Positions 46,482-62,912 of a stretch of 64,000 nucleotides of DNA are shown here, piece by piece. The notes beneath the pieces were generated by a model. It saw nothing but the letters and a program-made list of their open reading frames with translations. It searched no databases and was not told the DNA's origin. Position numbers and translations under genes: made by a program. The DNA comes from Sphaerotilus hippei (GTDB lineage Bacteria > Pseudomonadota > Gammaproteobacteria > Burkholderiales > Burkholderiaceae_C): positions 1-64,000 of the forward strand of contig NZ_QJJS01000012.1 of assembly GCF_003201595.1 (NCBI RefSeq). The letters run 5' to 3'. Every line of letters starts with the position of its first letter. Within the stretch, counting starts at the first letter, position 1.

Positions 46482-47213
46482 TCAGTCGGCCGACCAGCGG
46501 TAGCGGCACAGCGTGCGGCTCTCGGCCTGCAGGTAGACGACGCTGTCGTGCCGGAAGCCGGGCTGATGGACGAAGGCGTGCAGGCGGCGCGAGAGCTGCC
46601 CGTGGTCCTGGGGGTCGAGGGTTTCCCAGCCGATGGCCACCGGGATCCGCTGCAGCAGGCGCACCAGCGCCACGCCTTCCTCGCGCGCCAGCGCCACCAC
46701 GGCATCGGGGTCGGCGATGCGGGTGCGCAGGCGCAGCAGGTCGTCGCCCAGCGTGGTCGTGATGCGGCCCGTGCCCAGCCCGCGGGCCTCGAGGGCCTGG
46801 CGCCACTGCCGCACGTCCTCCTGGGCGACGGCGCTGGCCAGCCAGGTCCGGGTGTTGCCCATGGCCCGCACGCGCACGATCAGCTCGTCCGTGCCGAGGG
46901 CCTGCCTGAACTGCTGCCGCGCCAGCGCCAGCGCCGCCTGCTGGCGCTGCGGCGCCAGCCAGGGCGGCGAGGGCAGCGTGATCAGGGTGTGGTGGGCGAA
47001 CTCGTCGTCCACCGTCATGCGCACCCTGCCGCGCCAGGGCTGCGGGTCGGCCCGCTGCAGTGCGTCCAGCGCCGCCCCGATCGAGGCGGCGCCCAGGCCG
47101 CTGCCGGTGGCCGTCGCCCGCGGGCGGGCGCTCCAGCCGGGGCCCCAGCGTTCGGCCTGGCAGCTGCGCAGGTGCAGCTGCAGGCCCAGCTCACTCGTCC
47201 ACCGCAGTGACAC
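46482..47213 (-). CDS. GspL/PilM-like protein, partner of a degenerate secretion ATPase
   Basis: A 243-residue soluble protein. I do not recognise a named family, but the pattern VRMTVDDEFAHHTLITLPSP followed by RQQAALALARQQFRQALG and AVAQEDVRQWRQALEARGLG resembles the actin-like cytoplasmic part of GspL/PilM in beta-proteobacteria. It has no membrane helix. It overlaps the end of the ATPase-like gene by 23 nt, so the two are surely co-translated. No other pilus or secretion gene is nearby. Role inferred only. Confidence 0.55.
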   Translation of the reverse strand: MSLRWTSELGLQLHLRSCQAERWGPGWSARPRATATGSGLGAASIGAALDALQRADPQPWRGRVRMTVDDEFAHHTLITLPSPPWLAPQRQQAALALARQQFRQALGTDELIVRVRAMGNTRTWLASAVAQEDVRQWRQALEARGLGTGRITTTLGDDLLRLRTRIADPDAVVALAREEGVALVRLLQRIPVAIGWETLDPQDHGQLSRRLHAFVHQPGFRHDSVVYLQAESRTLCRYRWSAD

Positions 47214-48927
47214 GGTCGGCTTCCTCCAGCGTCACCAGGCCGTCGCAGACCTGCTGCAGCGCGGCTTCGCGCAGGCTGGGCAGGCCGATGGCCGCGATGT
47301 TCTGCATCAGCGCGTCGAGGCCGGCATCGCTGCCCAGCGAGGCCCTCAGGTGCTGTCCGGGATCGAACCACTGCGAGATCACGACCTGGCCGTCCTGCCC
47401 GGTGTGGTGGCAGGCGGCGCAGCCGGTGCCCCGCACGAAGGCCCAGCCTTCCTCGCGGACGTCGCGGCTCAGGCCGCTGGCGCGCAGCCGGGCGTCGTCG
47501 GGGTCGTCGGTCTCGAGGCAGTGCCGGCACACCGTGCCCAGCAGACGCTGGGCGTACAGCCCGGTCAGCACCGATCCCAGCGTGGCCCCGCTGTCCGGCC
47601 CGCACAGGTGGCGCAGGCGTTCCCAGGCGCCCGGCACATGGGGCGCGGCCAGGGTCAGCACGACGTTGCGCCCGCTCAGCGCCTGCTGCAGCGCCCAGGC
47701 GGCCAGCGCGGGCGTGTCCACGTCGTCGAGCGCGACCAGGGCCGGGCCGAGGGCCTGGACTTGCGCGTCCAGCGTGCCGGGCAGGGCGGGCCGGTCGATC
47801 ACCGTCACCCCGGCCGACCGCAGCGCCGGGTCCGTGTCGCTGCCGGCCCGGTTGGCGGCGCGCACCAGCAGCATCGATCCGTGCCGGGCGGGCGAGGTCA
47901 GCGACGTCAGGCACTGCGACAGCAGTTCGCCCTTGCCCTGGTCGGGCGGGCTGGCCAGCACCAGCAGCCCGAAGGGCCGGCCCAGCGCCCGGACCAGGCC
48001 CGAACGGGTCGTGCCTTCGAGCGGCACCGGCCGGGGCGAGCCGGTCGTGGCGAGGCCGGCCAGCTCGATCACGACGCTGCGCTCGCCGGCCTGCCAGGCC
48101 AGCAGGCGCACCGGGCAGCACACCGTCCGGTCATGGAAGGGCAGGGGCAGCAGGCCGGCCGTCGGATCGGCCGCGTGCCAGTCGACCTGCGCATGCAGGT
48201 CGGCCAGCACGTCCAGTGCCGCGCCACCGGGCATTTCGCCGATGCGCAGCGTGTTCACCGGGCGGGCCTGCCAGCCGCTGGTGAACCCGAGGCGCTGCCG
48301 CAGCCCGTGGTGGTCGGCCGTCAGGTGCAGGCGCCGGGCGCCGTCGCGCAGCGCGTCGGTCAGCAGCTCGCGCAAGGGACTGCGTGCGCCGTCGGCCGGT
48401 CCGCCGCAGGGCAGGGCCGCTTCCGGCGCGTCGGCGGCGCCGGACAGGTCCGGGCCGGGCGCCGGCCACAGCGGCAGCTCGCGAGCGGTGCGTTGCCAGT
48501 AGTCGATCAGGTCCTCGTGCGGGGCGACGAACCAGCGGCAGCGGGGCCGGTGGGCGCGCCGGATGCGCGCTTCCAGCCACCAGCGGGTGCCACGATCGAA
48601 GGGGTCGGCCAGCACCAGGTCGGGGCCGCCGTCGTCGCGCCGCAGCGCGACGCACAGGCGCGCCAGCCCTTCCTGCGGGCCGATCAGGTCGAGGTCGGCC
48701 ACCCGCACCGGGGCGCTGGCCAGCGCGGCCAGCGGCATGCCGGCGCGCTCGACCAGCCAGCGCCGGTAGGCCGCCTCGCGGACCGGGCCGGGCGCGTCGG
48801 TGGGCAGCCGGACTTCGGCCCGGAAACGTCCGTCCAGCCGCTGCGAGGCCTGCCGGGCGGCCTGCCCGGCTTCGTCCAGTCCCGATCGGGGTGCGGTGGC
48901 CAGGGCGGCGCGTTGCGGTGCGGTCAT
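47191..48927 (-). CDS. Degenerate type II secretion / type IV pilus ATPase-like protein (GspE/PilB family)
   Basis: A 578-residue protein. The N-domain (about 30-150) resembles the GspE N-terminal domain, including LVLADPFDRGTRWWLEARIR. The ATPase core follows, but Walker A reads SPPDQGKGELLS (about 326-337) instead of GPTGSGKST, and the Walker B region reads ALVALDDVDTP (about 396-406) instead of the GEIRD type. The tetra-cysteine zinc motif is retained: Cys467/470 and Cys503/506. So it probably binds zinc but may not hydrolyse ATP normally. It is overlapped by a GspL/PilM-like gene. No other T2SS/T4P genes are seen here. Confidence 0.75.
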   Translation of the reverse strand: MTAPQRAALATAPRSGLDEAGQAARQASQRLDGRFRAEVRLPTDAPGPVREAAYRRWLVERAGMPLAALASAPVRVADLDLIGPQEGLARLCVALRRDDGGPDLVLADPFDRGTRWWLEARIRRAHRPRCRWFVAPHEDLIDYWQRTARELPLWPAPGPDLSGAADAPEAALPCGGPADGARSPLRELLTDALRDGARRLHLTADHHGLRQRLGFTSGWQARPVNTLRIGEMPGGAALDVLADLHAQVDWHAADPTAGLLPLPFHDRTVCCPVRLLAWQAGERSVVIELAGLATTGSPRPVPLEGTTRSGLVRALGRPFGLLVLASPPDQGKGELLSQCLTSLTSPARHGSMLLVRAANRAGSDTDPALRSAGVTVIDRPALPGTLDAQVQALGPALVALDDVDTPALAAWALQQALSGRNVVLTLAAPHVPGAWERLRHLCGPDSGATLGSVLTGLYAQRLLGTVCRHCLETDDPDDARLRASGLSRDVREEGWAFVRGTGCAACHHTGQDGQVVISQWFDPGQHLRASLGSDAGLDALMQNIAAIGLPSLREAALQQVCDGLVTLEEADRVTAVDE

Positions 48928-50027: not shown

Positions 50028-50143
50028 CGGGGGGTCTGGTCGGTTGATGCCCGTCTTTCGGGCGATGGATTTTGAATCGTACACCGGCCACAGTGGGCGG
50101 GCGGGCGCCGGTCGCGGCCGTGACGGGGGCGGGGTGGAGATCG

Positions 50144-52657
50144 ATGGGCACACAGGCGCTTTCACGGGTCGGTGGCGGGCGCCGTGCCGCGCTGGCGCTG
50201 GGCTGGCTCGGCGGCACGGGCTGGCAGCTGCACGGCGCGTCCGTCGTCCCTCTTGCCGCCTCGGCGGGGATGGTCGGCCTGCTGCTGCTGGCCGGGGTGC
50301 TGCTGCACGCGTGGTGCCGCCGGCGCGAGCGTGGGTGGACGGCGGTGTGGCTGTGCCTGCTGCTGGGGGCGGGCCTGGGCTGGGCCCAGACCGACTGGCG
50401 GGCCGCCCGGCGGCTGGCGGTGGTGCTGCCGCCCGCGCTCGAGGGTCAGGCCCTGGCGGTCGTGGGCCGGGTGGTGGCGCTGCCGGCCCGCACCGGGGAC
50501 GGCGTGCGTTTCCTGTTCGAGATCGAGTCCTTCGACCGGCCGGTGCCCGATACCATGCCCCGGCGCGTGATGCTGAGCTGGTTCGTCCCGTCCTGGGGGC
50601 TGCCGGGGCAGCCGGCGCCGCAGGACCTGGCCGCCGGTCAGCGCTGGCGCCTGGAGGTCCGGCTGCGTCAGCCCCATGGCGCGATCAACCCCGGCGGCTT
50701 CGACCGCGAGCTCTGGCTGTTCGAGCAGGACGTGCGGGCCACCGGCTCGGTGCGCACCGGCAAGTCGGCCCGGGCGCAGCGCCTGGAGGCGGGGGTCTGC
50801 TGCGCCCTCGAGCGCTACCGCCAGCGCGTGCGCGAGGCCCTGGAGCGCCGGCTCGGGGACACGCCGCAGGCGGGGGTGCTGGCGGCCCTGAGCGTTGGTG
50901 ACCAGTCGGCGATCGATCGTGCCGACTGGGCGGTGTTCCGCCTGACCGGCGTGGCCCACCTGATGGCCATCAGCGGCCTGCACATCACGATGCTGGCCTG
51001 GCTGGCGGCGCGCCTGGCCGCCTGGGGCTGGCGGCGCAGCCGGCGGCTGTGCTGGTGCGTGCCGGCCCCGCTGGCCGGCGCCTGGGCGGGGGTGGTGCTG
51101 GCCATCGCCTATGCGCTGCTGGCGGGCTGGGGCGTGCCGGCCCAGCGCACCGTGTGCATGCTGGTGGCCTGGCAGGTCTGGCGCACCGCCGGGCTGCGCT
51201 CCTCCGCGGCGGGGCAGTGGCTGCTGGCCGCGCTGGTGGTGGCCGTGGCCGATCCGTGGGCGCTGCTGCAGGCCGGTTTCTGGCTGTCCTTCATCGCGGT
51301 CGGGCTGCTGATGGGCTCGGGTGGCGTCGGCGAGGGCATCGACCGGCGCGAGCCGTCCGGGGGAGATCCGGGGCCGGCGTGGCCGGCGCGTGCGGGGCGG
51401 CTGGTCCGCGAGGGGCTGCACAGTCAGTGGGTCGCCAGCATCGGCCTGGCGCCCTGGACGCTGCTGCTGTTCCAGCAGCTGTCGCTGGTGGGGCTGCTGG
51501 CCAATCTGGTGGCCGTGCCGGTCGTGACCTGGCTGGTGACCCCGCTGGCGCTGCTGGGCCTGTTCTGGTCGGGCAGCTGGGTGCTGGCCGCCGCGCCGCT
51601 CGAAGGGTTGATGGCCGCCCTGTCGTGGCTGTCGACCTGGCCCTGGGCGGCCTGGTCCGCCCCGGCCGCGCCGGTCTGGGCCAGCGTGGCCGGGCTGATC
51701 GGCGGCGGGCTGATGGTGGCCCCGCTGCCCGTGACGATGCGGGGTGTCGGCCTGCTGCTGACGCTGCCGATGCTGTGGCCGGCCGTGCCGGGCCCGGCGG
51801 CAGGCGAGTTCGACGTGCTCGTGCCCGACGTGGGTCAGGGCAACGCCGTGCTGGTGCGCACGGCGACCCATGCCCTGCTCTATGACACCGGGCCGGCCTG
51901 GGCGCGGGGCGCGGGTGCGGGCGAGCTGATCCTGGTGCCGCTGCTGCGCCGCCTGGGCGTGGGGCGCCTGGATGCGCTGGTGCTGTCCCACCGCGACAGC
52001 GACCACACGGGCGGAGCCGAGGCGGTGATTCACTCTCTTGGTGCATACCACCTGTTCTCCTCGCTCGAAGCCGGGCATGCTCTGCGGGGCAGGGCACCAC
52101 ATCAGTGGTGTTCGCGGGGTCTGCGCTGGCAATGGGACGGGGTGAGTTTCGAGTTTCTTCATCCATCGGCCGACCTGGCCGGCCAGGGGATCGAGGCCGT
52201 GCGGCCGGGACGCTCCAATGCCCGTTCCTGCGTGTTGCAGATCCGCAATGCATCCCGGTCCGTCTTGTTGACCGGCGACATGGAACGTGAGCAGGAGCTC
52301 ACGCTGTTACAGGCGCCAACACTGAAAATTCGAACCGATGTCATGCTGGTACCGCATCATGGAAGTCGCACGTCTTCCAGCGATGAATGGCTGCGAGCGG
52401 TGAAACCGGACGTTGCGGTGGTCCAGGCGGGCTACCTCAATCGTTACGGGCATCCGGCGGCCGAGGTCATGGCTCGATATGGCGCGCACGGTATTGGTGT
52501 GATCCGCACGGATTCGTGCGGAGCCTGGCGCTGGAGCAGCACGAATGCGCGTTTTTCGTGCACGAGGGTCGAGACCCCCCGGTATTGGCGTGCCCTGCTT
52601 CGGGGCGATGGCCCTGAATTTGCTAAGACCCTGTCATTCGACAACACAGAACCATGA
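50144..52657 (+). CDS. comEC: ComEC/Rec2-family DNA uptake channel
   Basis: An 837-residue polytopic inner-membrane protein needed to take single-stranded DNA into the cytoplasm during natural transformation. The N-terminal DUF4131-like OB region (about 30-190), the competence domain with GVAHLMAISGLHITM and several helices (about 235-520), and a C-terminal metallo-beta-lactamase-like domain with LSHRDSDHTGG are in family order. The ATG at 50144 follows GGAG; a TTG 24 codons upstream is possible. The last 600 bases and the start of the next gene have clearly lower GC than the rest. It overlaps the next gene by 4 nt. Confidence 0.93.
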   Translation: MGTQALSRVGGGRRAALALGWLGGTGWQLHGASVVPLAASAGMVGLLLLAGVLLHAWCRRRERGWTAVWLCLLLGAGLGWAQTDWRAARRLAVVLPPALEGQALAVVGRVVALPARTGDGVRFLFEIESFDRPVPDTMPRRVMLSWFVPSWGLPGQPAPQDLAAGQRWRLEVRLRQPHGAINPGGFDRELWLFEQDVRATGSVRTGKSARAQRLEAGVCCALERYRQRVREALERRLGDTPQAGVLAALSVGDQSAIDRADWAVFRLTGVAHLMAISGLHITMLAWLAARLAAWGWRRSRRLCWCVPAPLAGAWAGVVLAIAYALLAGWGVPAQRTVCMLVAWQVWRTAGLRSSAAGQWLLAALVVAVADPWALLQAGFWLSFIAVGLLMGSGGVGEGIDRREPSGGDPGPAWPARAGRLVREGLHSQWVASIGLAPWTLLLFQQLSLVGLLANLVAVPVVTWLVTPLALLGLFWSGSWVLAAAPLEGLMAALSWLSTWPWAAWSAPAAPVWASVAGLIGGGLMVAPLPVTMRGVGLLLTLPMLWPAVPGPAAGEFDVLVPDVGQGNAVLVRTATHALLYDTGPAWARGAGAGELILVPLLRRLGVGRLDALVLSHRDSDHTGGAEAVIHSLGAYHLFSSLEAGHALRGRAPHQWCSRGLRWQWDGVSFEFLHPSADLAGQGIEAVRPGRSNARSCVLQIRNASRSVLLTGDMEREQELTLLQAPTLKIRTDVMLVPHHGSRTSSSDEWLRAVKPDVAVVQAGYLNRYGHPAAEVMARYGAHGIGVIRTDSCGAWRWSSTNARFSCTRVETPRYWRALLRGDGPEFAKTLSFDNTEP

Positions 52658-54090
52658 GACCAATGTTTGACGAAATGTATGCCTCCGGCACAGAAGTTCG
52701 GGATCACTACAGAAACTACGGTCGCTGGTTGGCTGAGCAGCCCGAAGATGTGATGCGCATCCGCCGTGAAGAGGCGGAGATGATCTTCCGCCGCGTGGGG
52801 ATCACCTTCGCGGTCTACGGCGACAAGGACAGCGGCGAGGGCACCGAACGCCTGATCCCGTTCGACCTGATCCCCCGTGTCATTCCCGCCGCCGAATGGC
52901 GGGAGATGGAAAAAGGGCTGCGACAGCGCGTGACCGCCCTGAACCGCTTCATCCACGACGTCTACCACGACCAGGAGATCGTCAAGGCGGGCCTGGTGCC
53001 CCGGGAGCAGATCCTCAACAACGCGCAGTTCCGCCCCGAGATGATCGGCGTGGACGTGCCCGGGGGCATCTACTCCCACATCGCCGGCATCGACATCGTG
53101 CGTGCGGCCAACCCGGATGGCAGCGGCACCTACTACGTGCTCGAGGACAACCTGCGGGTGCCCAGCGGCGTGAGCTACATGCTCGAGAACCGCAAGATGA
53201 TGATGCGGCTCTTTCCCGAGCTGTTCGCCTCCAACAAGGTCGCCCCGGTGGCGCACTACCCCGACCTGCTGCTCGAGACGCTGCGCAGCGTGGCGCCCAA
53301 CGGCGTCAACGACCCGACGGTGGTGGTGCTGACGCCGGGCATGTACAACTCGGCCTACTTCGAGCACGCCTTCCTCGCCCAGCAGATGGGCGTGGAGCTG
53401 GTCGAGGGCAAGGACCTGTTCGTCAAGGACCACTTCGTCTTCATGCGCACGACGCGCGGCCCGCGCCGTGTCGACGTGATCTACCGCCGCCTCGACGACG
53501 ACTTCCTCGATCCCCAGGCCTTCCGTGCGGACTCGACGCTGGGCTGCGCCGGCCTGCTGTCGGCCTACCGCGCCGGCAACGTGACGCTGTCCAACGGCAT
53601 CGGCACCGGCGTGGCCGACGACAAGTCGATCTACGCCTACGTGCCCAAGATGATCGAGTTCTACCTGGGCGAGAAGCCGATCCTGCAGAACGTGCCGACC
53701 TACCTCTGCCGCGAGGCGGATGACCTGAAGTACGTGCTCGACCACCTCGACGAGCTGGTGGTCAAGGAGGTGCACGGCGCCGGCGGCTACGGCATGCTGG
53801 TGGGTCCGGCGGCGACCCAGGCCGAGATCGCGACCTTCCGCCAGCACCTGCTGGCCAATCCCGGCAACTACATCGCCCAGCCGACGCTGAGCCTGTCGAC
53901 CTGCCCGACCTACGTCGAGTCCGGCATCGCCCCGCGTCACATCGACCTGCGCCCCTTCGTGCTGTCGGGTCGCAACGAGGTGCAGATGGTGCCGGGCGGC
54001 CTGACCCGCGTGGCCCTGAAGGAGGGCTCGCTGGTGGTCAACTCGTCGCAGGGCGGTGGCACCAAGGACACCTGGGTGCTGGAAGCCTGA
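52654..54090 (+). CDS. Circularly permuted ATP-grasp protein (DUF404/DUF407 type)
   Basis: A 478-residue protein of the CP-ATP-grasp family predicted to form peptide or amide bonds. Landmarks: YYVLEDNLRVPSGVSYMLEN (about 168-187), VVVLTPGMYNSAYFEHAFLA, FVKDHFVFMRTTRGPRRVDV with IYRRLDDDFLDPQAF, VVKEVHGAGGYGML near residue 370, and the end PGGLTRVALKEGSLVVNSSQ with GGGTKDTWVLEA. Start ATG 52654 overlaps the comEC stop by 4 nt. It is the first of five genes of the ATP-grasp / Alpha-E / transglutaminase type. Biochemical product unknown. Confidence 0.92.
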   Translation: MRPMFDEMYASGTEVRDHYRNYGRWLAEQPEDVMRIRREEAEMIFRRVGITFAVYGDKDSGEGTERLIPFDLIPRVIPAAEWREMEKGLRQRVTALNRFIHDVYHDQEIVKAGLVPREQILNNAQFRPEMIGVDVPGGIYSHIAGIDIVRAANPDGSGTYYVLEDNLRVPSGVSYMLENRKMMMRLFPELFASNKVAPVAHYPDLLLETLRSVAPNGVNDPTVVVLTPGMYNSAYFEHAFLAQQMGVELVEGKDLFVKDHFVFMRTTRGPRRVDVIYRRLDDDFLDPQAFRADSTLGCAGLLSAYRAGNVTLSNGIGTGVADDKSIYAYVPKMIEFYLGEKPILQNVPTYLCREADDLKYVLDHLDELVVKEVHGAGGYGMLVGPAATQAEIATFRQHLLANPGNYIAQPTLSLSTCPTYVESGIAPRHIDLRPFVLSGRNEVQMVPGGLTRVALKEGSLVVNSSQGGGTKDTWVLEA

Positions 54091-54221
54091 GGTGGCGGTC
54101 GGCCTGATCCTTTCCTTTCCCTTTTCCCGGGCGGGGTGCCAGCGAGGCATCTCCGCTCATGAACATCAAGTCCAAGCAGAGACCGGTGCGGCAGTGAACG
54201 CCCGGTCCGGAGATGCGCCCC

Positions 54222-55178
54222 ATGCTGTCAAGAACCGCTGATCACCTCTTCTGGATGGCCCGCTACATGGAGCGGGCCGAGAACACCGCGCGCATGCTGG
54301 ACGTCAACTACCAGACGGCCCTGCTGCCCCAGTCCGAGGCGGTGGCCGAGCAGGGCTGGCGCGGCCTGCTGAGCATCTCCGAGCTGAGCGGCGACTACGC
54401 CAGCCGCTACGGCGACATCGATGCCCGCAGCGTCATGAACTTCATGGTCAGCGACGAGAAGAACCCGTCGTCCATCGTGCGCTGCCTGCACGCCGCCCGC
54501 GAGAACGCCCGTGCGGTGCGGGGCGCGCTGACCACCGAGGTCTGGGAGACCACCAACCAGACCTGGCTGGAGTTCAACCGCATGCTGCGCGACAGCGCCT
54601 TCGAGCGTGACCCCGGGCCGCTCTACGAGTGGGTCAAGTTCCGCTCGCACCTGTCGCGTGGGGTCCAGGTCGGCACCATGCTGCAGGACGAGGCGCTGCA
54701 TTTCGTGCGCATCGGCACCTTCCTGGAGCGCTCGGACAACACCGCCCGACTGCTCGACGTCAAGTTCCACGCCGTCGAGAGCGATTTCTACGGCGCGGCC
54801 GAGGCCCGTGATCAGGAGTACGACTTCTATCACTGGTCGGCCATCCTGCGTTCGGTCTCGGGCTTCGAGGTCTACCGCAAGGTCTACCGCAACGTCATCC
54901 AGCCCGAGAAGGTCGCCGAACTGCTGATCCTGCGTCCCGACATGCCACGCTCGCTGGCCGCCTGCATGAACGAGGTGGTGGTCAACCTGTCGCTGGTGGC
55001 CAGCGAACAGTCCTCCGAGACCCTGCGCCGGGCCGGTCGCCTGCGCGCCGACCTCGAGTACGGCCGCATCGACGAGATCCTGGCCACCGGACTCCATGCC
55101 TACCTGACCCAGTTCCTCGACCGTGTCGGGGCCCTGGGCCTGGGCATCAGTCGCGACTTCCTGGTAGCGGTGCACTGA
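54222..55178 (+). CDS. Alpha-E domain protein (DUF403)
   Basis: A 318-residue all-helical protein. The family N-terminus MLSRTADHLFWMARYMERAE and the end LRADLEYGRIDEILATGLHA define the Alpha-E domain, which always accompanies CP-ATP-grasp proteins. Its action is unknown. The ATG at 54222 is preferred over one at 54213 because GGAG (54209-54212) then sits 9 nt upstream. A 131-nt gap precedes it; a strong hairpin follows. Confidence 0.92.
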   Translation: MLSRTADHLFWMARYMERAENTARMLDVNYQTALLPQSEAVAEQGWRGLLSISELSGDYASRYGDIDARSVMNFMVSDEKNPSSIVRCLHAARENARAVRGALTTEVWETTNQTWLEFNRMLRDSAFERDPGPLYEWVKFRSHLSRGVQVGTMLQDEALHFVRIGTFLERSDNTARLLDVKFHAVESDFYGAAEARDQEYDFYHWSAILRSVSGFEVYRKVYRNVIQPEKVAELLILRPDMPRSLAACMNEVVVNLSLVASEQSSETLRRAGRLRADLEYGRIDEILATGLHAYLTQFLDRVGALGLGISRDFLVAVH

Positions 55179-55187
55179 TCGGCGGCC

Positions 55188-55226
55188 GTGCCGCGGCCGG
55201 TCCCCGCCAAGCGGGGGCCGCGGCAC
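55188..55226. repeat. Hairpin inside the ATP-grasp operon
   Basis: GTGCCGCGGCC (55188-55198) pairs with GGCCGCGGCAC (55216-55226); inside, CCCCGC/GCGGGG continues the stem past a small bulge. No T-run. It lies between the Alpha-E and the transglutaminase/DUF2126 genes and may act as an RNA stability or processing element. Confidence 0.6.
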
Positions 55227-55278
55227 TGTCATCGATTCCGACCACACTCGCTCCGACAACATCACACAGGGTCCATCC

Positions 55279-58200
55279 GTGTCCATTCACGTCGCTCTCA
55301 GTCACGTCACCCACTACCGATACGACCGGCGCGTCAACCTGTCGCCCCAGATCGTGCGCCTGCGCCCCGCGCCGCACTGCCGCACGCCCATCCTGTCCTA
55401 TTCGCTGCGCGTCGAGCCGCAGAGCCACTTCATCAACTGGCAGCAGGATCCGTTCTCGAACTACCTGGGCCGCCTGGTCTTCCCGGAACCGACCACCGAG
55501 TTCAAGGTCACCATCGACCTGGTGGCCGAGATGTCGGTCTACAACCCGTTCGACTTCTTCCTCGAGCCGGGCGCCGAGAACTATCCCTTCGCCTACGACG
55601 ACGCGCTCAAGCAGGAGCTCGCGCCCTACCTCGTGGCCGAGCCGGCCACGCCCGCCTTCCAGAAGTTCCTCGACTCGATCGACCGCAAGGAAGTGCGCAC
55701 GATCGACTTCCTGGTCGGGCTGAACCAGCGCCTGCAGGGGGACATCAGCTACCTGATCCGCCTCGAGCCGGGCGTGCAGACGCCCGAGGAGACGCTGACC
55801 AAGGCGTCGGGCTCCTGCCGCGACACCGGCTGGCTGATGGTCGAGACGCTGCGCCACATGGGCCTGGCCGCCCGCTTCGTCTCCGGCTACCTCATCCAGC
55901 TCAAGCCCGACGTCAAGGCGCTGGACGGCCCGAGTGGCACCGAGGTCGACTTCACCGACCTGCACGCCTGGTGCGAGGTCTACCTGCCGGGCGCCGGCTG
56001 GATCGGCCTGGACCCGACCTCGGGCCTGATGGCCGGCGAAGGCCACATCCCGCTGGCCTGCACGCCCCAGCCCTCGAGCGCGGCGCCGATCACCGGCGCG
56101 GTCGACGAGTGCGAGGTCGAGTTCGGCCACGAGATGAACATCACGCGCATCTGGGAATCACCGCGCGTCACCAAACCCTACACCGATGACCAGTGGCAGG
56201 CCGTGCTGAGCCTGGGCGACCAGGTCGACGAGGAGCTGGTCGCCGGCGACGTGCGCCTGACCATGGGCGGCGAGCCGACCTTCGTGTCGGTCGACGACCG
56301 CGACGGCGCCGAATGGAACACCGAGGCGCTCGGCCCGACCAAGCGCATGTACGCCCAGGACCTGACGCAGCGCCTGCGTGACCATTACGGCCAGGGTGGA
56401 TTCCTGCACTTCGGCCAGGGCAAGTGGTACCCGGGCGAGCAGCTGCCGCGCTGGGCGCTGTCGATCTTCTGGCGCGCCGACGGCCAGCCCTGCTGGCACG
56501 ACCCGAGCCTGTTCGCCGACGAGCGTGATCCGCACGCCTACACCTCGGCCGATGCCCAGCATTTCCTGCGCACGCTGACGCGCAAGCTCGGCCTGACCGA
56601 CAGCTACATCCAGACCGGCTACGAGGACACCTGGTACTACCTGTGGCGCGAACGCCGCCTGCCGGTCAACGTCGATCCGTTCGACAGCCGCCTGGACGAC
56701 GAGCTCGAGCGCATGCGCCTGCGGCGCGTCTTCGCCCAGGGCCTGGACTACGACGTCGGCTACGTGCTGCCGATCCAGCCCGAAGGCGGTCCGGGTCTCG
56801 GCGGTTCGCGCTGGACCACCGGCCCGTGGTTCTTCCGCGACGAGCGCATGTACCTGATCCCGGGCGACTCGCCGATGGGCTACCGCCTGCCGCTGGACTC
56901 GCTGCCCTGGGTCAGCAAGGGCGAGTACCCCTACCTGATCGACCACGATCCGTTCGCCGACCGTGACGCGCTGCCCGCGTCCACGCGGGTGCGCAGCCAG
57001 TATGCCGCCCATGTCGTGGGGGGCGGTTTTGCCGAAGGCGGCACGGTGGCGCTGCAGGCCGATGCCGGCACCGGCGCGGGGGCTGCGGGCTACACGCTGG
57101 ACCTGAGCGGCGCGGACGCCACGGGTGCTGGCACGGCCGGGGGCGCGACCGCCGCCGGCCTGGCGGGTTCCGGTGACGGCGCCGGCCGCAAGCCCTCCGA
57201 CAGCCTGCGCGCGCTGACGCCCGAGGAGCTGGCGCGCCATCCGCAGCGCTTCGAGTCGGCCCACTGGATCACCCGCACCGCGCTGTGCGTGGAGGTGCGT
57301 GACCCGCGCCGCGCCAACGGCCCGAAGGCCGAGAAGGTCGGCAGCGCCACCGGCGTGCTCTATGTCTTCATGCCGCCGCTGGCGCATCTGGAGGACTACC
57401 TCGACCTGCTGGCCGCGATCGAGGCCTCGGCGGCCGAGCTGGGCATGAAGATCGTGCTCGAGGGCTATCCGCCGCCGCGCGACCCGCGCCTGAAGATGCT
57501 GCAGGTCACGCCCGACCCGGGCGTCATCGAGGTCAACATCCATCCGGCGCACGACTGGAAGGAGCTGGTCGAGCACACCGAATTCCTCTACGACGCCGCG
57601 TGGAAGTCGCGCCTGTCGACCGAGAAGTTCATGCTCGACGGCCGCCACACCGGCACCGGCGGGGGCAACCACTTCGTGCTGGGCGGGGCCACGCCGGCCG
57701 ACTCGCCCTTCCTGCGCCGCCCGGACCTGCTGGCCAGCCTGCTGACCTTCTGGCACAACCATCCGTCGCTGAGCTACCTGTTCTCGGGCCTGTTCATCGG
57801 CCCGACCAGCCAGGCCCCGCGCGTGGACGAGGCCCGCAACGACCAGGTCTACGAGCTGGAGATCGCGCTGGCCGAGATCGAGCGCAACAAGGCGATCTAC
57901 GGCGCCGACATGCCGCCGTGGCTGGTCGACCGCACGCTGCGCAACGTGCTGATCGACGTGACCGGCAACACGCACCGCAGCGAGTTCTGCATCGACAAGC
58001 TCTATTCGCCCGACAGCTCGACCGGCCGCCTGGGCCTGCTGGAGCTGCGTGCGTTCGAGATGCCCCCGCATGCGCAGATGAGCATCGCCCAGCAGCTGCT
58101 GCTGCGTGCGCTGCTGGCGCGTTTCTGGAAGGAGCCCTACCGCGCGCCGCTGGTGCGCTGGGGCACCGAGCTGCACGACCGTTTCCTGCTGCCCACCTTC

Positions 58201-58836
58201 GTGCAGATGGACTTCGACGACGTGATGGAGGACATGCGCCAGGCCGGCTACGCCTTCGACACCGAGTGGTTCGCGCCGCACTTCGAGTTCCGTTTCCCGA
58301 AGGTCGGCGAGGTCACGGCCCGCGGGGTCCACGTGACGCTGCGCAACGCGCTCGAACCCTGGCACGTGATGGGCGAGGAGGGTGCCGTCGGCGGCACGGT
58401 GCGCTACGTCGACTCGTCGCTGGAGCGCATGGAGGTCAAGGTCACGGGTCTGGTCGATCCGCGCCATGTCGTGACCTGCAACGGCGTGCCGGTGCCGCTG
58501 CAGCCGACCGGCCGGGTGGGCGAGTACGTGGCCGGGGTGCGTTACCGTGCCTGGCAGCCGTCGGCCGCGCTGCATCCGACCATCGGGGTCCATGCGCCGC
58601 TGACCTTCGATCTGGTCGACACCTGGATGAACCGCTCGATGGGCGGCTGCCAGTACCACGTGGCCCATCCGGGCGGACGCAACTACGACTCCTTCCCGGT
58701 GAACTCCTACGAGGCCGAGAGCCGGCGCCTGGGTCGTTTCTTCGCCATGGGTCACACCCCGGGCAAGGTCGTCGCGGCCCAGCCTGATCGAAGCTGGGAG
58801 TTCCCGTTCTCGCTCGATCTGCGCCGTCCGGTCTGA
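55279..58836 (+). CDS. Transglutaminase-like protease fused to DUF2126
   Basis: A 1185-residue protein. N-terminal Bact_transglu_N-like region (about 1-90, SHVTHYRYDRRVNLSPQIVR), then a transglutaminase core with the triad Cys180 (SGSCRDTGW), His229 (DLHAWCEVY) and Asp245 (IGLDPTSG). DUF2126 fills most of the rest, starting with VRLTMGGEPTFVSVDDRDGA (about 326-345) and including ITRTALCVEVRDPR, GMKIVLEGYPPPRDPRL and HTGTGGGNHFVLGG. A Gly/Ala-rich linker of about 60 residues (57013-57200) breaks DUF2126. The GTG at 55279 starts the reading frame at the expected N-terminus. It probably acts on the product of the ATP-grasp enzymes; this is inference. Confidence 0.92.
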   Translation: MSIHVALSHVTHYRYDRRVNLSPQIVRLRPAPHCRTPILSYSLRVEPQSHFINWQQDPFSNYLGRLVFPEPTTEFKVTIDLVAEMSVYNPFDFFLEPGAENYPFAYDDALKQELAPYLVAEPATPAFQKFLDSIDRKEVRTIDFLVGLNQRLQGDISYLIRLEPGVQTPEETLTKASGSCRDTGWLMVETLRHMGLAARFVSGYLIQLKPDVKALDGPSGTEVDFTDLHAWCEVYLPGAGWIGLDPTSGLMAGEGHIPLACTPQPSSAAPITGAVDECEVEFGHEMNITRIWESPRVTKPYTDDQWQAVLSLGDQVDEELVAGDVRLTMGGEPTFVSVDDRDGAEWNTEALGPTKRMYAQDLTQRLRDHYGQGGFLHFGQGKWYPGEQLPRWALSIFWRADGQPCWHDPSLFADERDPHAYTSADAQHFLRTLTRKLGLTDSYIQTGYEDTWYYLWRERRLPVNVDPFDSRLDDELERMRLRRVFAQGLDYDVGYVLPIQPEGGPGLGGSRWTTGPWFFRDERMYLIPGDSPMGYRLPLDSLPWVSKGEYPYLIDHDPFADRDALPASTRVRSQYAAHVVGGGFAEGGTVALQADAGTGAGAAGYTLDLSGADATGAGTAGGATAAGLAGSGDGAGRKPSDSLRALTPEELARHPQRFESAHWITRTALCVEVRDPRRANGPKAEKVGSATGVLYVFMPPLAHLEDYLDLLAAIEASAAELGMKIVLEGYPPPRDPRLKMLQVTPDPGVIEVNIHPAHDWKELVEHTEFLYDAAWKSRLSTEKFMLDGRHTGTGGGNHFVLGGATPADSPFLRRPDLLASLLTFWHNHPSLSYLFSGLFIGPTSQAPRVDEARNDQVYELEIALAEIERNKAIYGADMPPWLVDRTLRNVLIDVTGNTHRSEFCIDKLYSPDSSTGRLGLLELRAFEMPPHAQMSIAQQLLLRALLARFWKEPYRAPLVRWGTELHDRFLLPTFVQMDFDDVMEDMRQAGYAFDTEWFAPHFEFRFPKVGEVTARGVHVTLRNALEPWHVMGEEGAVGGTVRYVDSSLERMEVKVTGLVDPRHVVTCNGVPVPLQPTGRVGEYVAGVRYRAWQPSAALHPTIGVHAPLTFDLVDTWMNRSMGGCQYHVAHPGGRNYDSFPVNSYEAESRRLGRFFAMGHTPGKVVAAQPDRSWEFPFSLDLRRPV

Positions 58837-58854
58837 TCCGCGCCAGGATCGGTC

Positions 58855-61839
58855 ATGAATGGGGCCAAGGATCCCGGCGGTCCGCCCCGGAAAACGGCTG
58901 AGCGCCTCCCGGAACCGGTGGGTTCCGGGGCGCCTGTCCGGGTGAGCCACCTGGGGCCGTCGTCCGAAGCAGGGCATGATCCGGACATGCAATCGAGTTT
59001 GCTTTCCGAAGAAATGCCCGATGCGGCCGCGCTGGCGGCCGCCGCGGCGCTGGCGGCCACGCCCGGCCATCACGATGAACTGCGGGGCATCCCCGCGCTG
59101 TGTGCCCAGGTCGTGGACAAGGGCGAGGACGCGGACAAGGACGACACGGCGGCGTCCGGCGAGAGCCTGTCGCCGCTGTGGAGCCAGTTCTTCGACATCA
59201 ACGGTGTCGAGGGCTGGAACGACCTGCCGGCGCGGCTGGCGCGCATCCAGCGCCGCGTGCGCGAGGACGGCGCGACCTACAACGTCTATGCCGAGAACGG
59301 GGACGGCGCCCGCTCCTGGCCGCTGGAGATGCTGCCGCTGCTGGTCAGCCCGCTCGAGTGGGCGCACATCGAGAAGGGCGTGACCCAGCGTGCGCGGCTG
59401 CTGGAGGCGGCGCTGCGCGACATCTACGGGCCGCAGGAGCTGCTGCGCACCGGCCTGCTGCCGGCGCCGCTGATCTACGGCCATCCCCAGTACCTGCATG
59501 CGGTGCACGGGCTGCAGCCGGCCGGCCAGGCGTGGCTGCACGTGATGGCGGTCGACCTGGCCCGCGGCCCCGACGGTCACTGGTGGGTCGTCGGTCACCG
59601 CACCGGCGCGCCCTCCGGCCTGGGCTACCTGCTCGAGAACCGGCTCATCGTCGCGCAGCAGTTTCCCGATGCCTTCCGCGAGATGCGGGTGCAGCGCATC
59701 GCCTCGGCCTTCCGGGCGTTGATGGAAGGCCTGATGCATGCCAGTCCGGCGGGCGACCGCTCGCGCACGGTGCTGCTGACGCCGGGGCCGCGCAACGAGA
59801 CCTATTTCGAGCACGTCTTCCTGGCCCGCTACCTGGGCCTGTCGCTGGTCGAGGGCTCCGACCTGACGGTGCGCGACCAGAAGCTCTACCTCAAGACCAT
59901 GCATGGCCTCGAGCGGGTGCACATCGTGCTGCGCCGGGTCGACGACGAGTGGGTCGATCCGCTCGAGCTGCGTTCGGATTCGGCCCTGGGCGTGCCCGGC
60001 CTGCTGCAGGCCGTGCGAGCCCAGCAGGTGGTGCTGGCCAACGTGCCGGGTGCCGGCGTGCTCGAGAGCCCGGGCCTGACCGCCTTCTGGCCCGGGGTCG
60101 CCCGCAAGCTGCTCAAGGAAGAGCTGATCCTGCCCGCGACCACCAGCTGGTGGTGCGGCGAGGGCAGCGTCTGGAACGCCAACCGCGCGACCCTGTCCGA
60201 CTACGTGATCATGCCGACCTTCCCGGCCGGCCCGGTCACGCGCAGCTTCGAGCCGGTGCTCGCCGGTGACCTGAGTCCGGAACGCCTGCGTGCCTGGGAG
60301 GCGCGCATCGCGGCCGATCCGGCCGCGCACACCCTGCTCGAGCCGGTGCACCCCTCGGAGCTGCCGGTCTGGCGGGACGGGCGCCTGGAGCCCCGGCCGG
60401 TGGTGATGCGGGTCTACGCCATGCTCGACGGCGAAGGCCGCTGGCGGGTGCTGCCGGGCGGGCTGACGCGGGTGGCCACCCGGCGTGCGCCGGGGGCGAC
60501 GACGGCGGCTTCACGTGCGGCGATCGCCGCGACCGCCGAGCTGTCGGCCAAGGCGGCCCGCTCGTCGAGCGAGGCGGCCGCCAACGACGGCACGGTCGAG
60601 CCTGCGCCGCCCATGGCCGAACCCGTGGTGCCCGTGCCCGCCGCGGCCGCTGCGGCGCCGGTGGCCACGACGCTGGGGGCCACGGCCTCGCGGGCCGACG
60701 GCGGCAGTGGCGCGGACGCCTACCTGTCCATGCAGCGCGGCAGCGCCAGCACCGACACCTGGGTGCTGGCCGAGGGCGAGGTCGATGCCACCAGCCTGCT
60801 GCCCCAGCCGCTGGTCGCCGCCGACCTGATGGGCTGGCACCGGGTGATCACCAGCCGGGCGGCGGAAAACCTGTTCTGGCTGGGCCGCTACACCGAGCGG
60901 GCCGAAAACGCCAACCGCCTGGCCCGGCTGCTGCTGGAGAGCCTGCCCACCGCCCGGGCGCCGGTGGTCGACTACCTGCATGCGCTGGCGCTGCGCCACG
61001 GCCTGATCGGGCGGTCGGTGCCGTCGCCGGTGCGTGGCACGCCGCAGGCGGCCCGGCTGTTCGAACGTTCGCTGATGCATGCGCTGGCCGATCCGACGGG
61101 CTCGACCAGCGTGGCCTACAACCTGCGAGCCCTGCGCCGCTGCGCCGAGTCGCTGCGCGAGCGGCTGTCCGACGAGCACTGGTCCCTGATCCTCGACCTC
61201 GACGAGCGGTTTTCCCGGCGGGTCGGGGCGGTGCTGGCGCAGGAGGGCCACGAGCCGCTGAGCGACGTGCTGGCGGTGCTGGCCCAGACCGCCACGCAGC
61301 TGGCGGCCGTGACCGGCTCGCAGACCGACCGCATGACCCGCGACGACGGCTGGCGTCTGCTCAGCGTGGGCCGGCAGATCGAGCGGCTGCACATGCTCTC
61401 GCATGCGCTGGCCAGCGGCTTCGAGCGTGGGCTGCAGCGCTCCGACGACGGTTTTGCCACGCTGCTGGGCCTGTTCGACTCGACCATCACCTACCGGGCC
61501 CAGTTCCAGGCCCGCAAGGAGGTGCCGCCGCTGCTGCACCTGCTGGTGATGGACACCGACAACCCGCGCGCGCTGGCCTGGGTGGCCCGCACGCTGCGTG
61601 ACCGGCTGGTCAAGCTGGCCCGCCACGATCCGCCCTGGGCCGAGGAGGTCTGCGCCTTGCTGCCCCAGCCGGTGGGCTGGGACCTGGCCGCGCTGTGCGA
61701 GGTCGACGACGAGCGGCGCTACCGGCAGCTGAACGAGGCGCTGACCGCCTGCAGCGAAGGCGTCTGGGCGCTGTCCAACGAAATCAGCCGACACCTGTTC
61801 TCGCACGTGGGCCCGGCCCCGCGGGCGGTGTGGCAATGA
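58855..61839 (+). CDS. Fusion of a circularly permuted ATP-grasp protein and an Alpha-E domain
   Basis: A 994-residue protein. The N-terminal half (about 100-540) is a second CP-ATP-grasp unit, with LLENRLIVAQQFPDAFREMR, LRRVDDEWVDPLELRSDSAL and TTSWWCGEGSVWNANRATL. An Ala-rich low-complexity insert of about 80 residues (60481-60720) separates PGGLTRVATRR from ASTDTWVLAEGE, the usual C-terminal ATP-grasp motif. The Alpha-E unit (about 662-990) begins RVITSRAAENLFWLGRYTER. ATG 58855 has AGGA 6 nt upstream; an internal Met at 58987 is less supported. It overlaps the last transglutaminase gene by 4 nt. Confidence 0.9.
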   Translation: MNGAKDPGGPPRKTAERLPEPVGSGAPVRVSHLGPSSEAGHDPDMQSSLLSEEMPDAAALAAAAALAATPGHHDELRGIPALCAQVVDKGEDADKDDTAASGESLSPLWSQFFDINGVEGWNDLPARLARIQRRVREDGATYNVYAENGDGARSWPLEMLPLLVSPLEWAHIEKGVTQRARLLEAALRDIYGPQELLRTGLLPAPLIYGHPQYLHAVHGLQPAGQAWLHVMAVDLARGPDGHWWVVGHRTGAPSGLGYLLENRLIVAQQFPDAFREMRVQRIASAFRALMEGLMHASPAGDRSRTVLLTPGPRNETYFEHVFLARYLGLSLVEGSDLTVRDQKLYLKTMHGLERVHIVLRRVDDEWVDPLELRSDSALGVPGLLQAVRAQQVVLANVPGAGVLESPGLTAFWPGVARKLLKEELILPATTSWWCGEGSVWNANRATLSDYVIMPTFPAGPVTRSFEPVLAGDLSPERLRAWEARIAADPAAHTLLEPVHPSELPVWRDGRLEPRPVVMRVYAMLDGEGRWRVLPGGLTRVATRRAPGATTAASRAAIAATAELSAKAARSSSEAAANDGTVEPAPPMAEPVVPVPAAAAAAPVATTLGATASRADGGSGADAYLSMQRGSASTDTWVLAEGEVDATSLLPQPLVAADLMGWHRVITSRAAENLFWLGRYTERAENANRLARLLLESLPTARAPVVDYLHALALRHGLIGRSVPSPVRGTPQAARLFERSLMHALADPTGSTSVAYNLRALRRCAESLRERLSDEHWSLILDLDERFSRRVGAVLAQEGHEPLSDVLAVLAQTATQLAAVTGSQTDRMTRDDGWRLLSVGRQIERLHMLSHALASGFERGLQRSDDGFATLLGLFDSTITYRAQFQARKEVPPLLHLLVMDTDNPRALAWVARTLRDRLVKLARHDPPWAEEVCALLPQPVGWDLAALCEVDDERRYRQLNEALTACSEGVWALSNEISRHLFSHVGPAPRAVWQ

Positions 61840-62912
61840 ACGCGACGATGACCGATTCCGAGAAACCGGTGATCCGCGGGGTGCCCATCCGCATCCTGCG
61901 GGTCGAGCACGAGACCCGCTACCGCTACGACGCGCCGGTCGAGCTGGCCAACCACATGGCCCGGCTGCGGCCCCGTCACACGGCGACGCAGCGCATCCGC
62001 GACTGGCACCTGGTGGTCGAGCCCTTGCCCGATGCCTCGCCGGAGGGGGAGGAGCCGGGCGCGCCTCAGGTGGTGCCGCCCGGCGTGCACCAGAGCCGCG
62101 ACACCTGGGGCAACTGGCGCGCGACGTTCTCGCATTCGCGGGTGCACGACCAGCTGGTCGTGCGCTCGACCTTCCAGGCCCAGGTCTGCGCGGCCGTGAG
62201 CCTGCAGATGCTCAACAGCCCGGCGTGGGAGAAGGTGGCCGAGCGGCTGCGCTACCGTGCGCGCGTGCCGCTCGACGATGCGCTCGAGTTCGCGCTGCCT
62301 TCGGCCTATGCCCCCCGGGATGCGGCGCTGGCGGCCTTCGCCAACGAGGTGTTCGTGCCCGGCACGCCGCTGCTGGCGGGTGCGTTCGCGCTGATGCACC
62401 TGATCCACCGGCGCTTCGAGTACCGGCCCAGTGCCACGTCGGTCTCCACCCGGGCGCCCGAAGCCCTGGCGCAGCGCCGCGGCGTCTGCCAGGACTTCGC
62501 CCACGTGATGATCGGCGCGATGCGCTCGCTGGGCCTGTCGGCGCGTTACGTCAGCGGCTACCTGCTGACCCAGCCGCCACCGGGCCAGCCCCGGCTGGTC
62601 GGGGCCGACGCCTCCCATGCCTGGGTGCAGGTGTGGTGCCCGGTGCATGGCTGGGTGGCGCTGGACCCGACCAACGCGGTGCTGGTCGGCCCCGACCACG
62701 TGACGCTGGCCTGGGGTCGCGACTACGAGGACGTGGCACCGCTGCGCGGGGTGATCCGCGGCGGCGGGCGGGCGATCCCGGAGGTGGCGGTCACGGTCGA
62801 GCCGATCGAGGTCGCGGCCGCCCGCGGGGCCTGCGCGCCCGTGCGGCCCCCGGGGGCGGCGGTGCCCGCCGCACGGCCCGCGGCCGCACCGGTCACGCCG
62901 CCGCGGCGTTGA
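61836..62912 (+). CDS. Short transglutaminase-like cysteine protease
   Basis: A 358-residue protein. The N-terminal RVEHETRYRYDAPVELANHM region (Bact_transglu_N) is followed by a transglutaminase core with Cys218 (RRGVCQDFAH), His261 (DASHAWVQV) and Asp277 (VALDPTNAV), so the catalytic triad is complete. It lacks DUF2126. It starts at ATG 61836, 4 nt inside the fusion gene, so translation is coupled. The last 45 residues are Pro/Ala-rich. It completes the second round of ATP-grasp / Alpha-E / transglutaminase. Confidence 0.93.
   Translation: MNATMTDSEKPVIRGVPIRILRVEHETRYRYDAPVELANHMARLRPRHTATQRIRDWHLVVEPLPDASPEGEEPGAPQVVPPGVHQSRDTWGNWRATFSHSRVHDQLVVRSTFQAQVCAAVSLQMLNSPAWEKVAERLRYRARVPLDDALEFALPSAYAPRDAALAAFANEVFVPGTPLLAGAFALMHLIHRRFEYRPSATSVSTRAPEALAQRRGVCQDFAHVMIGAMRSLGLSARYVSGYLLTQPPPGQPRLVGADASHAWVQVWCPVHGWVALDPTNAVLVGPDHVTLAWGRDYEDVAPLRGVIRGGGRAIPEVAVTVEPIEVAAARGACAPVRPPGAAVPAARPAAAPVTPPRR

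Follow-up and report, generated by a model that had tools for sequence, protein, structure and literature searches.

An ATP-grasp/Alpha-E fusion with a predicted loss of its ligase site accompanies an active-type paralogue in a putative amide ligase/transglutaminase cluster of Sphaerotilus hippei

The system that combines a circularly permuted ATP-grasp protein, an Alpha-E protein and a transglutaminase reportedly goes back to a founding study by Iyer et al. 2009. A close described arrangement is the Anbu operon, which consists of genes for an ATP-grasp protein, an Alpha-E protein, a transglutaminase and Anbu, and for which peptide synthesis or tagging is predicted in the accessible parts of two studies (PMC5666114, PMC6376114). 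According to the accessible part of one of them, phosphate was set free from ATP in vitro by the Anbu-operon ATP-grasp protein of Yersinia bercovieri (PMC6376114). More distant relatives are GspS and YgiC, two permuted ATP-grasp ligases of Escherichia coli. Here we analysed a stretch of 64,000 bases (hereafter the window), the first part of contig 12 (132,880 bases) of the Sphaerotilus hippei genome (4.43 Mb, completeness 100), in which five genes encode, in this order, a free ATP-grasp protein (P0002), a free Alpha-E protein (P0003), a transglutaminase fused to DUF2126 (P0004), an ATP-grasp/Alpha-E fusion (P0005) and a short transglutaminase (P0001). The ATP-grasp half of P0005 lacks the residues predicted to be needed for ligation, and we consider it reasonably probable that the five genes form one amide ligase/amidase system working under nitrogen limitation, with P0005 as a non-ligating paralogue.

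Similar to the Anbu operon, the cluster holds free ATP-grasp and Alpha-E genes side by side together with a transglutaminase, and a link with nitrogen starvation is reported for Anbu too; it differs in that the transglutaminase is fused to DUF2126 and that a pseudo-ATP-grasp fusion is added. The gene kinds match those of I35_5080-5083 in Burkholderia cenocepacia H111. In the locus retrieved here from a different B. cenocepacia strain (L267) the order is ATP-grasp, Alpha-E, transglutaminase, transglutaminase-DUF2126, fusion and transglutaminase, with one transglutaminase more than in the window and with an exact NtrC core, whereas the window has no exact core. The putative glutathionylspermidine synthase of Methylobacillus flagellatus (PDB 3n6x) is a near full-length homologue of P0002 (E 4.9e-220) and holds the Glu-Asp-Asn motif, which P0005 lacks although 3n6x is its best fold match. 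GspS and YgiC both show an Asp...Glu-x-Asn motif followed by Val-Lys-Pro, the same motif order as P0002, but the similarity is remote and P0005 has no Glu-x-Asn. GspS further joins a ligase and an amidase in one enzyme, as P0004 may do, although both the ligase fold and the amidase family would be different in P0004.

The loss of the ligase site was examined in an alignment of ATP-grasp domains, 124 free and 121 fusion-type with the two of the window included, from 172 loci of related genomes and plasmids; all sequences were distinct, and two open reading frames (ORFs) scoring below 180 bits had been dropped. An earlier first-pass comparison had covered 53 free and 29 fused ATP-grasps. The residue counts are not independent, because 80 of the 120 fusion loci were the best 80 of 582 scan matches and came nearly all from Burkholderiales. 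The motif Glu164-Asp-Asn166-x-Arg168 (P0002 numbering) was present in all 124 free copies, and neither that Glu nor that Asn was found in any of the 121 fusion copies. In the fusions the Glu was replaced by Ser, Ala or Gly (118/121), the Asn by Arg (115/121) and the Arg by Gln (113/121), so that the common pattern was (S/A/G)-x-Arg-x-Gln in most of them and GHRTG in P0005. Of the 124 free copies, 122 kept the GGYG loop, and GG[YFH]G occurred in 2 of the 121 fused ones; P0005 has lost the loop and carries Met453 in place of the ATP lysine (Lys371 of P0002). The fusion copies of Granulicella (L259, Acidobacteriota), Tsukamurella (L261, Actinomycetota) and three alphaproteobacterial loci (L260, L263, L266) were likewise without the Glu and the Asn. 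As judged from the alignment, the loss of Glu-x-Asn is thus a family-wide trait of the fusions.

In GspS and in glutathione synthetase, Mg2+ and ATP are bound by the residues that would match Glu-x-Asn and the lysine. In a weak profile alignment to YgiC (E 0.25), Glu164-Asp-Asn166 of P0002 fell on its Glu-Asn-Asn, and in a second weak one (E 0.12) Met453 of the fusion fell on its lysine; hhalign of the free ATP-grasp profile against GspS gave no useful alignment and missed the motif site. The predicted fold of P0005 (mean predicted local distance difference test score, pLDDT, 81.8) matched PDB 3n6x best (template modelling score 0.80 by target length), with glutathione synthetases, YgiC and GspS next in rank; every one of the 47 fold matches at E <=0.001 was an ATP-grasp enzyme by description. 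P0005 is, on these alignments and the predicted fold, a protein that has retained the fold and lost the site of chemistry. Database records call the fusion 'circularly permuted type 2 ATP-grasp protein'. An Ala-rich insert lies in the C-terminal part of the fused ATP-grasp at residues ~545-622 (60487-60720), just before a conserved SMQRG, and residues 563-620 were modelled with pLDDT <50.

Free and fused ATP-grasps separated in the tree without misplacement (support 1.0, branch 0.90), and the fused ones exceeded the free ones in evolutionary rate by a factor of about 2.5 (median 2.47; 1454 pairs from 71 loci). Of 120 fusion-type ORFs, 115 also encoded an Alpha-E domain, versus 0 of 123 free-type ORFs. 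The tree and the alignment indicate that the loss of the ligase site in the fusions is old and selected. The Alpha-E halves, compared initially in 52 free and 26 fused copies and again in 124 and 108, kept both Glu-Arg motifs in the fusions, and in most fused rows Glu112, Asp175, Thr177, Arg179 and Asp182 of the free Alpha-E were not kept. A sequence search of the PDB with Alpha-E up to E 1 gave no match.

An alternative explanation is that the fused ATP-grasp is not dead, and that its Arg-x-Gln site performs another nucleotide-dependent reaction or uses another metal arrangement; some pseudokinases transfer AMP. The Arg and Gln are near-fixed over a set of loci with one each of Acidobacteriota and Actinomycetota, and together with the lysine kept in 92 of the 121 fusions this suggests that the former active site is still under some form of selection. 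We nevertheless consider such altered chemistry unlikely, as the copy of the window has lost both the lysine and the Gln, yet the protein persists, the 12 fusions nearest to it in the tree have Val or Ala at the lysine position, and the GGYG loop is gone.

The distribution of the fusion across genomes points to a partner rather than a stand-alone ligase. In a sample of 299 genomes of the phylum, 157 had a match to the circularly permuted ATP-grasp, and 85 were called as fusion genomes by frame length and score; three of these calls (G482, G346, G413) match the ATP-grasp half alone but have long frames, two (G366, G549) contain a stop, and the co-occurrence table was compiled by hand. A further ATP-grasp of the free type was found in 84 of the 85, the exception being a genome that is 74% complete (G439). 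The free type was marked by the best E-values of these 84 genomes, all <=1.6e-129, versus 8.6e-110 for the best fusion in a class sample of 185 genomes. All 15 fusion genomes of the class sample and all 21 of an order sample of 120 genomes, own genome included, carried the free type. This co-occurrence in the 84 genomes makes the fusion look like a partner that depends on the active-type ATP-grasp. DUF2126 was present in 74 of the 85 fusion genomes, and 74 of the 84 DUF2126 genomes had the fusion. In the class sample, 34 of 35 DUF2126 genomes had a free ATP-grasp, while in the 35th (G152) the copy is split into two frames, and two fusion genomes (G225, G132) were without DUF2126. In genome G200, the free ATP-grasp gene at locus L104 (7517-9171, minus strand) is broken into two frames next to a short Alpha-E; the transglutaminase-DUF2126, fusion and transglutaminase genes there are whole, and another free ATP-grasp gene lies at L217. 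One locus of ~17 kb (L074, contig 33 of G028) holds two free ATP-grasps, the fusion, three transglutaminases and transglutaminase-DUF2126, with a third free copy on contig 1.

The order and strands found in the window recurred at 17 other loci among the 120 fusion loci, and 3 more had the same order with one extra transglutaminase. In 32 of the 120 the ATP-grasp/Alpha-E pair was divergent from the transglutaminase-DUF2126, fusion and transglutaminase genes. In 84 loci a transglutaminase-DUF2126 gene of the same orientation preceded the fusion within 2.5 kb (not there in 21, contig end in 15), and a transglutaminase followed directly 3' of the fusion in 108 (8 loci had none there and 4 reached a contig end). 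A fusion with a transglutaminase but no adjoining DUF2126 occurs in Sinorhizobium, Sphingomonas and Tsukamurella. Given these varied arrangements, the cluster is, by gene order, a recurrent assembly of three units (ATP-grasp/Alpha-E, transglutaminase-DUF2126 and fusion/transglutaminase) and not a recent duplication of one set. A gene annotated as 'putative zinc-binding metallopeptidase' stands between Alpha-E and transglutaminase-DUF2126 in Caballeronia (L264, 4183-5244, minus strand) and adjoins the ATP-grasp gene in Hymenobacter (L265, 7506-8459, minus strand); it is possibly an additional component of the system.

The first-pass annotation of this DNA had seen in the five genes two complete sets of three activities, each with its own ligase, Alpha-E and transglutaminase and the two likely differing in substrate. 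Its gene and domain calls were borne out: all five ORFs were found contiguous on the plus strand, and the profile hidden Markov model searches it had proposed matched ATP-grasp, Alpha-E, transglutaminase and DUF2126 domains in Pfam, both domain sets far above the cut-off. The active-site comparison, set beforehand as the test, came out divided. The transglutaminase triads were intact both in P0004 (Cys180/His229/Asp245) and in P0001 (Cys218/His261/Asp277), and the Cys-His-Asp triad was kept in 44/44 DUF2126-linked and 28/28 fusion-type transglutaminase rows (25 other rows had the Cys in 23, the His in 22 and the Asp in 24); by contrast, P0005 has lost Glu-x-Asn, the GGYG loop and the ATP lysine, and the metal ligands are missing in every fusion ATP-grasp aligned. 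The boundary between the sets also appears to run differently in the loci, since transglutaminase-DUF2126 usually accompanies the fusion and the ATP-grasp and Alpha-E genes form a separate unit that can lie on the opposite strand. An independent second ligase would, moreover, not need the free copy that nearly every fusion genome holds. Two parallel sets are thus quite improbable. It is more likely that the second ligase of the cluster is DUF2126, a putative amidoligase in Pfam that is probably glutamine-synthetase-like, rather than P0005.

Coordinates of the genes, the promoter-like site and the aligned residues in the window, with the evidence for each.
Feature	Position	Strand	Evidence
Sigma-54 type -24/-12 promoter-like site TGGCCCTGAATTTGCT, 10/12 consensus letters	52609..52624	+	consensus-count scan
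P0002, free circularly permuted ATP-grasp ligase, active type	52654..54090	+	478 aa; Pfam, PDB 3n6x, residues
P0002 Glu164-Asp-Asn166, predicted metal-binding Glu-x-Asn motif, intact	53143..53151	+	alignment; weak YgiC profile alignment
P0002 Lys371, predicted ATP lysine, intact	53764..53766	+	alignment
P0003, free Alpha-E protein	54213..55178	+	321 aa; Pfam
P0004, transglutaminase fused to DUF2126 putative amidoligase	55279..58836	+	1185 aa, GTG start; Pfam, triad alignment
P0005, pseudo-ATP-grasp/Alpha-E fusion	58855..61839	+	994 aa; Pfam, residue alignment, predicted fold
P0005 Gly247-His-Arg249-Thr-Gly251, at the place of Glu-Asp-Asn-x-Arg in free copies	59593..59607	+	alignment
P0005 Met453, at the place of the ATP lysine in free copies	60211..60213	+	alignment
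P0001, short transglutaminase, ATGA overlap with the fusion gene	61836..62912	+	358 aa from ATG; Pfam, triad

The Pfam matches were CP_ATPgrasp_2 for P0002 (E 2.5e-168), Alpha-E for P0003 (E 7.1e-98), Bact_transglu_N, Transglut_core and DUF2126 for P0004 (E 0; DUF2126 1358.7 bits), CP_ATPgrasp_2 (E 4.8e-137) and Alpha-E (E 7e-57) for P0005, and Transglut_core (E 8.3e-23) and Bact_transglu_N for P0001. Both P0002 and P0005 scored above the cut-off for the circularly permuted ATP-grasp profile (PF14403/PF04174). The whole genome gave two circularly permuted ATP-grasp and two Alpha-E matches, every one in this cluster. The closest named relatives by fusion protein include Sphaerotilus, Ideonella, Roseateles and Aquabacterium (Burkholderiales). 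Its upstream neighbour is comEC, and downstream of it lies a glutathione S-transferase gene on the opposite strand; both border the cluster directly. Further upstream, a T2SSE-type ATPase-like ORF (47191-48927, minus strand) matched PF00437 above the cut-off and MshEN weakly. Searches for defence systems with PADLOC and against NCBIfam gave no match at E 0.01.

Inside the 3' end of comEC, 45 nt ahead of the P0002 start codon, there is a sigma-54 type promoter-like site. It was found by a consensus count in which GG and GC were required, and sites scoring like it number five on both strands of the window; a stricter sigma-54 pattern, TGGCAYRNNNNTTGCW with <=1 mismatch, found no site in the window. 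Another candidate near 52583, noticed by eye, was dropped because its spacing is two bases short. In the near relatives (17 named, 15 with an ATP-grasp gene in the locus), the best site matched 9-11 of the 12 letters, and for 14 of the 15 its distance to the start was 37-64 nt. Across the loci, -24/-12 sites with >=10/12 letters were found upstream of 72/121 free ATP-grasp, 50/105 transglutaminase-DUF2126 and 3/116 fusion genes, compared to 51/1710 random stretches taken from the same loci; the exact NtrC core showed corresponding counts of 26/121, 7/105, 4/116 and 35/1710. The genome carries rpoN and an NtrC above the family cut-off. In B. cenocepacia H111, the accessible part of one study gives 6.0- to 9.4-fold lower values for I35_5080-5083 (DUF404/407, DUF403, transglutaminase and a large transglutaminase protein) in an ntrC mutant and lists these genes as a common target of NtrC and sigma-54 (PMC5491218), and in the other strain (L267) an 11/12 site and an NtrC core lie 81 nt and 161 nt upstream, respectively. 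Expression under nitrogen starvation is reported for Anbu in the parts accessible of PMC5666114 and PMC6376114, one of which also finds expression of the Anbu operon unchanged under various other conditions, and DUF403/404/407 were grouped with urea-metabolism domains in marine metagenomes (PMC3597751, accessible part). Overall, these sites and parallels suggest that the cluster is probably switched on under nitrogen shortage.

The same site bears on whether the cluster might continue the comEC (DNA uptake) operon, with the ATGA overlap as the mark of a shared function. The overlaps reported by the first-pass annotation are genuine: the last base of comEC is 52657 and the first of P0002 is 52654, and for P0005 and P0001 the corresponding positions are 61839 and 61836. 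As evidence for cotranscription, however, the one with comEC is weakened by the promoter-like site in the comEC end, and it is no proof. Neither the window nor its near relative L132 shows, by eye, a clear Shine-Dalgarno sequence before gene 1, which leaves room for some coupling to comEC. On the other hand, comEC (50072-52657 in the window) lay within the retrieved stretch of 51 of 173 loci and was absent from that of the other 122, some of which were short, and relatives also have a separate promoter-like site before gene 1, making a comEC extension very improbable. In Tsukamurella (L262) the order is comEC, DNA polymerase III delta, rpsT and ATP-grasp. An Anbu-type operon that tags proteins and feeds them to a proteasome-like peptidase is equally hard to credit, for although three of the four Anbu-operon genes are present (PMC5666114, PMC6376114, accessible parts), a proteasome-family search of this genome found no Anbu and matched HslV alone, beside HslU.

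In the single amide ligase/amidase system that we favour, P0002 would activate a carboxylate with ATP as an acyl-phosphate and join it to an amine, with the Alpha-E protein P0003 as its partner; amide formation by this pair is proposed because the Y. bercovieri ATP-grasp released phosphate from ATP. P0004 would couple a second, unrelated type of ligase (DUF2126) to a thiol transglutaminase/amidase in a GspS-like arrangement. P0005 would have kept the ATP-grasp/Alpha-E fold and lost metal-dependent phosphoryl transfer, and may form a complex in which it binds substrate, regulates or acts as a scaffold; its most likely partner is P0001, with whose gene its own shares a 4-base overlap.

Several observations weigh against this reading. 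The assignment of Glu164 and Asn166 as the known metal ligands is predicted from the motif, the fold and the weak YgiC alignment. The Glu is replaced by Asp in one fusion and by Asn in another, and when Glu-x-Asn was sought loosely, at any location within the fused domains, 11/121 matched. The lysine retained in 92 of the 121 fusions, the window not among these, makes nucleotide binding possible in most of them, and the near-fixed Arg and Gln could mean new chemistry, not none. Two alignments placed the stretch Arg96-Glu97-Asn98 of Alpha-E differently, so that its loss in the fusions is uncertain. DUF2126 was absent from 11 of the 85 fusion genomes, its model was poor (pLDDT 64.4), and glutamine synthetases were only weak matches to it (E 0.23-0.84). 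Upstream of the cluster in the window no exact NtrC core (GCAC-N7-GTGC) was found, only two sites with one mismatch, and gene 1 has no clear Shine-Dalgarno sequence. Anbu co-expressed with the other proteins of its operon showed no interaction, according to the accessible part of PMC6376114.

The system itself is of a known kind, and the points of interest are that the fusions have consistently lost the ligase site and that they appear to depend on an active-type paralogue. The literature search found no description of the fusion as inactive, the text of the 2009 study being outside its reach. The wider proposal, drawn from fusions sampled in Pseudomonadota plus one locus each from Acidobacteriota and Actinomycetota, is that the ATP-grasp/Alpha-E fusions would be an ancient, conserved class of ATP-grasp pseudoenzymes, with a near-fixed Arg-x-Gln in place of the metal ligands and near-obligate coexistence with an active free paralogue, and would be the subunit that sets the specificity of, or regulates, an amide ligase/transglutaminase machine for nitrogen starvation; we give this proposal an even chance. 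The view of the first-pass annotation that the family is predicted to make and cleave amides, with no established product, was upheld: the system is widespread (157/299 genomes), and the accessible parts of the literature covered assign it no product (PMC5666114, PMC6376114). On the reading favoured here, one of the two annotated 'ligases' should count as a non-catalytic partner, and nitrogen starvation would be the condition under which to seek a phenotype or metabolite.

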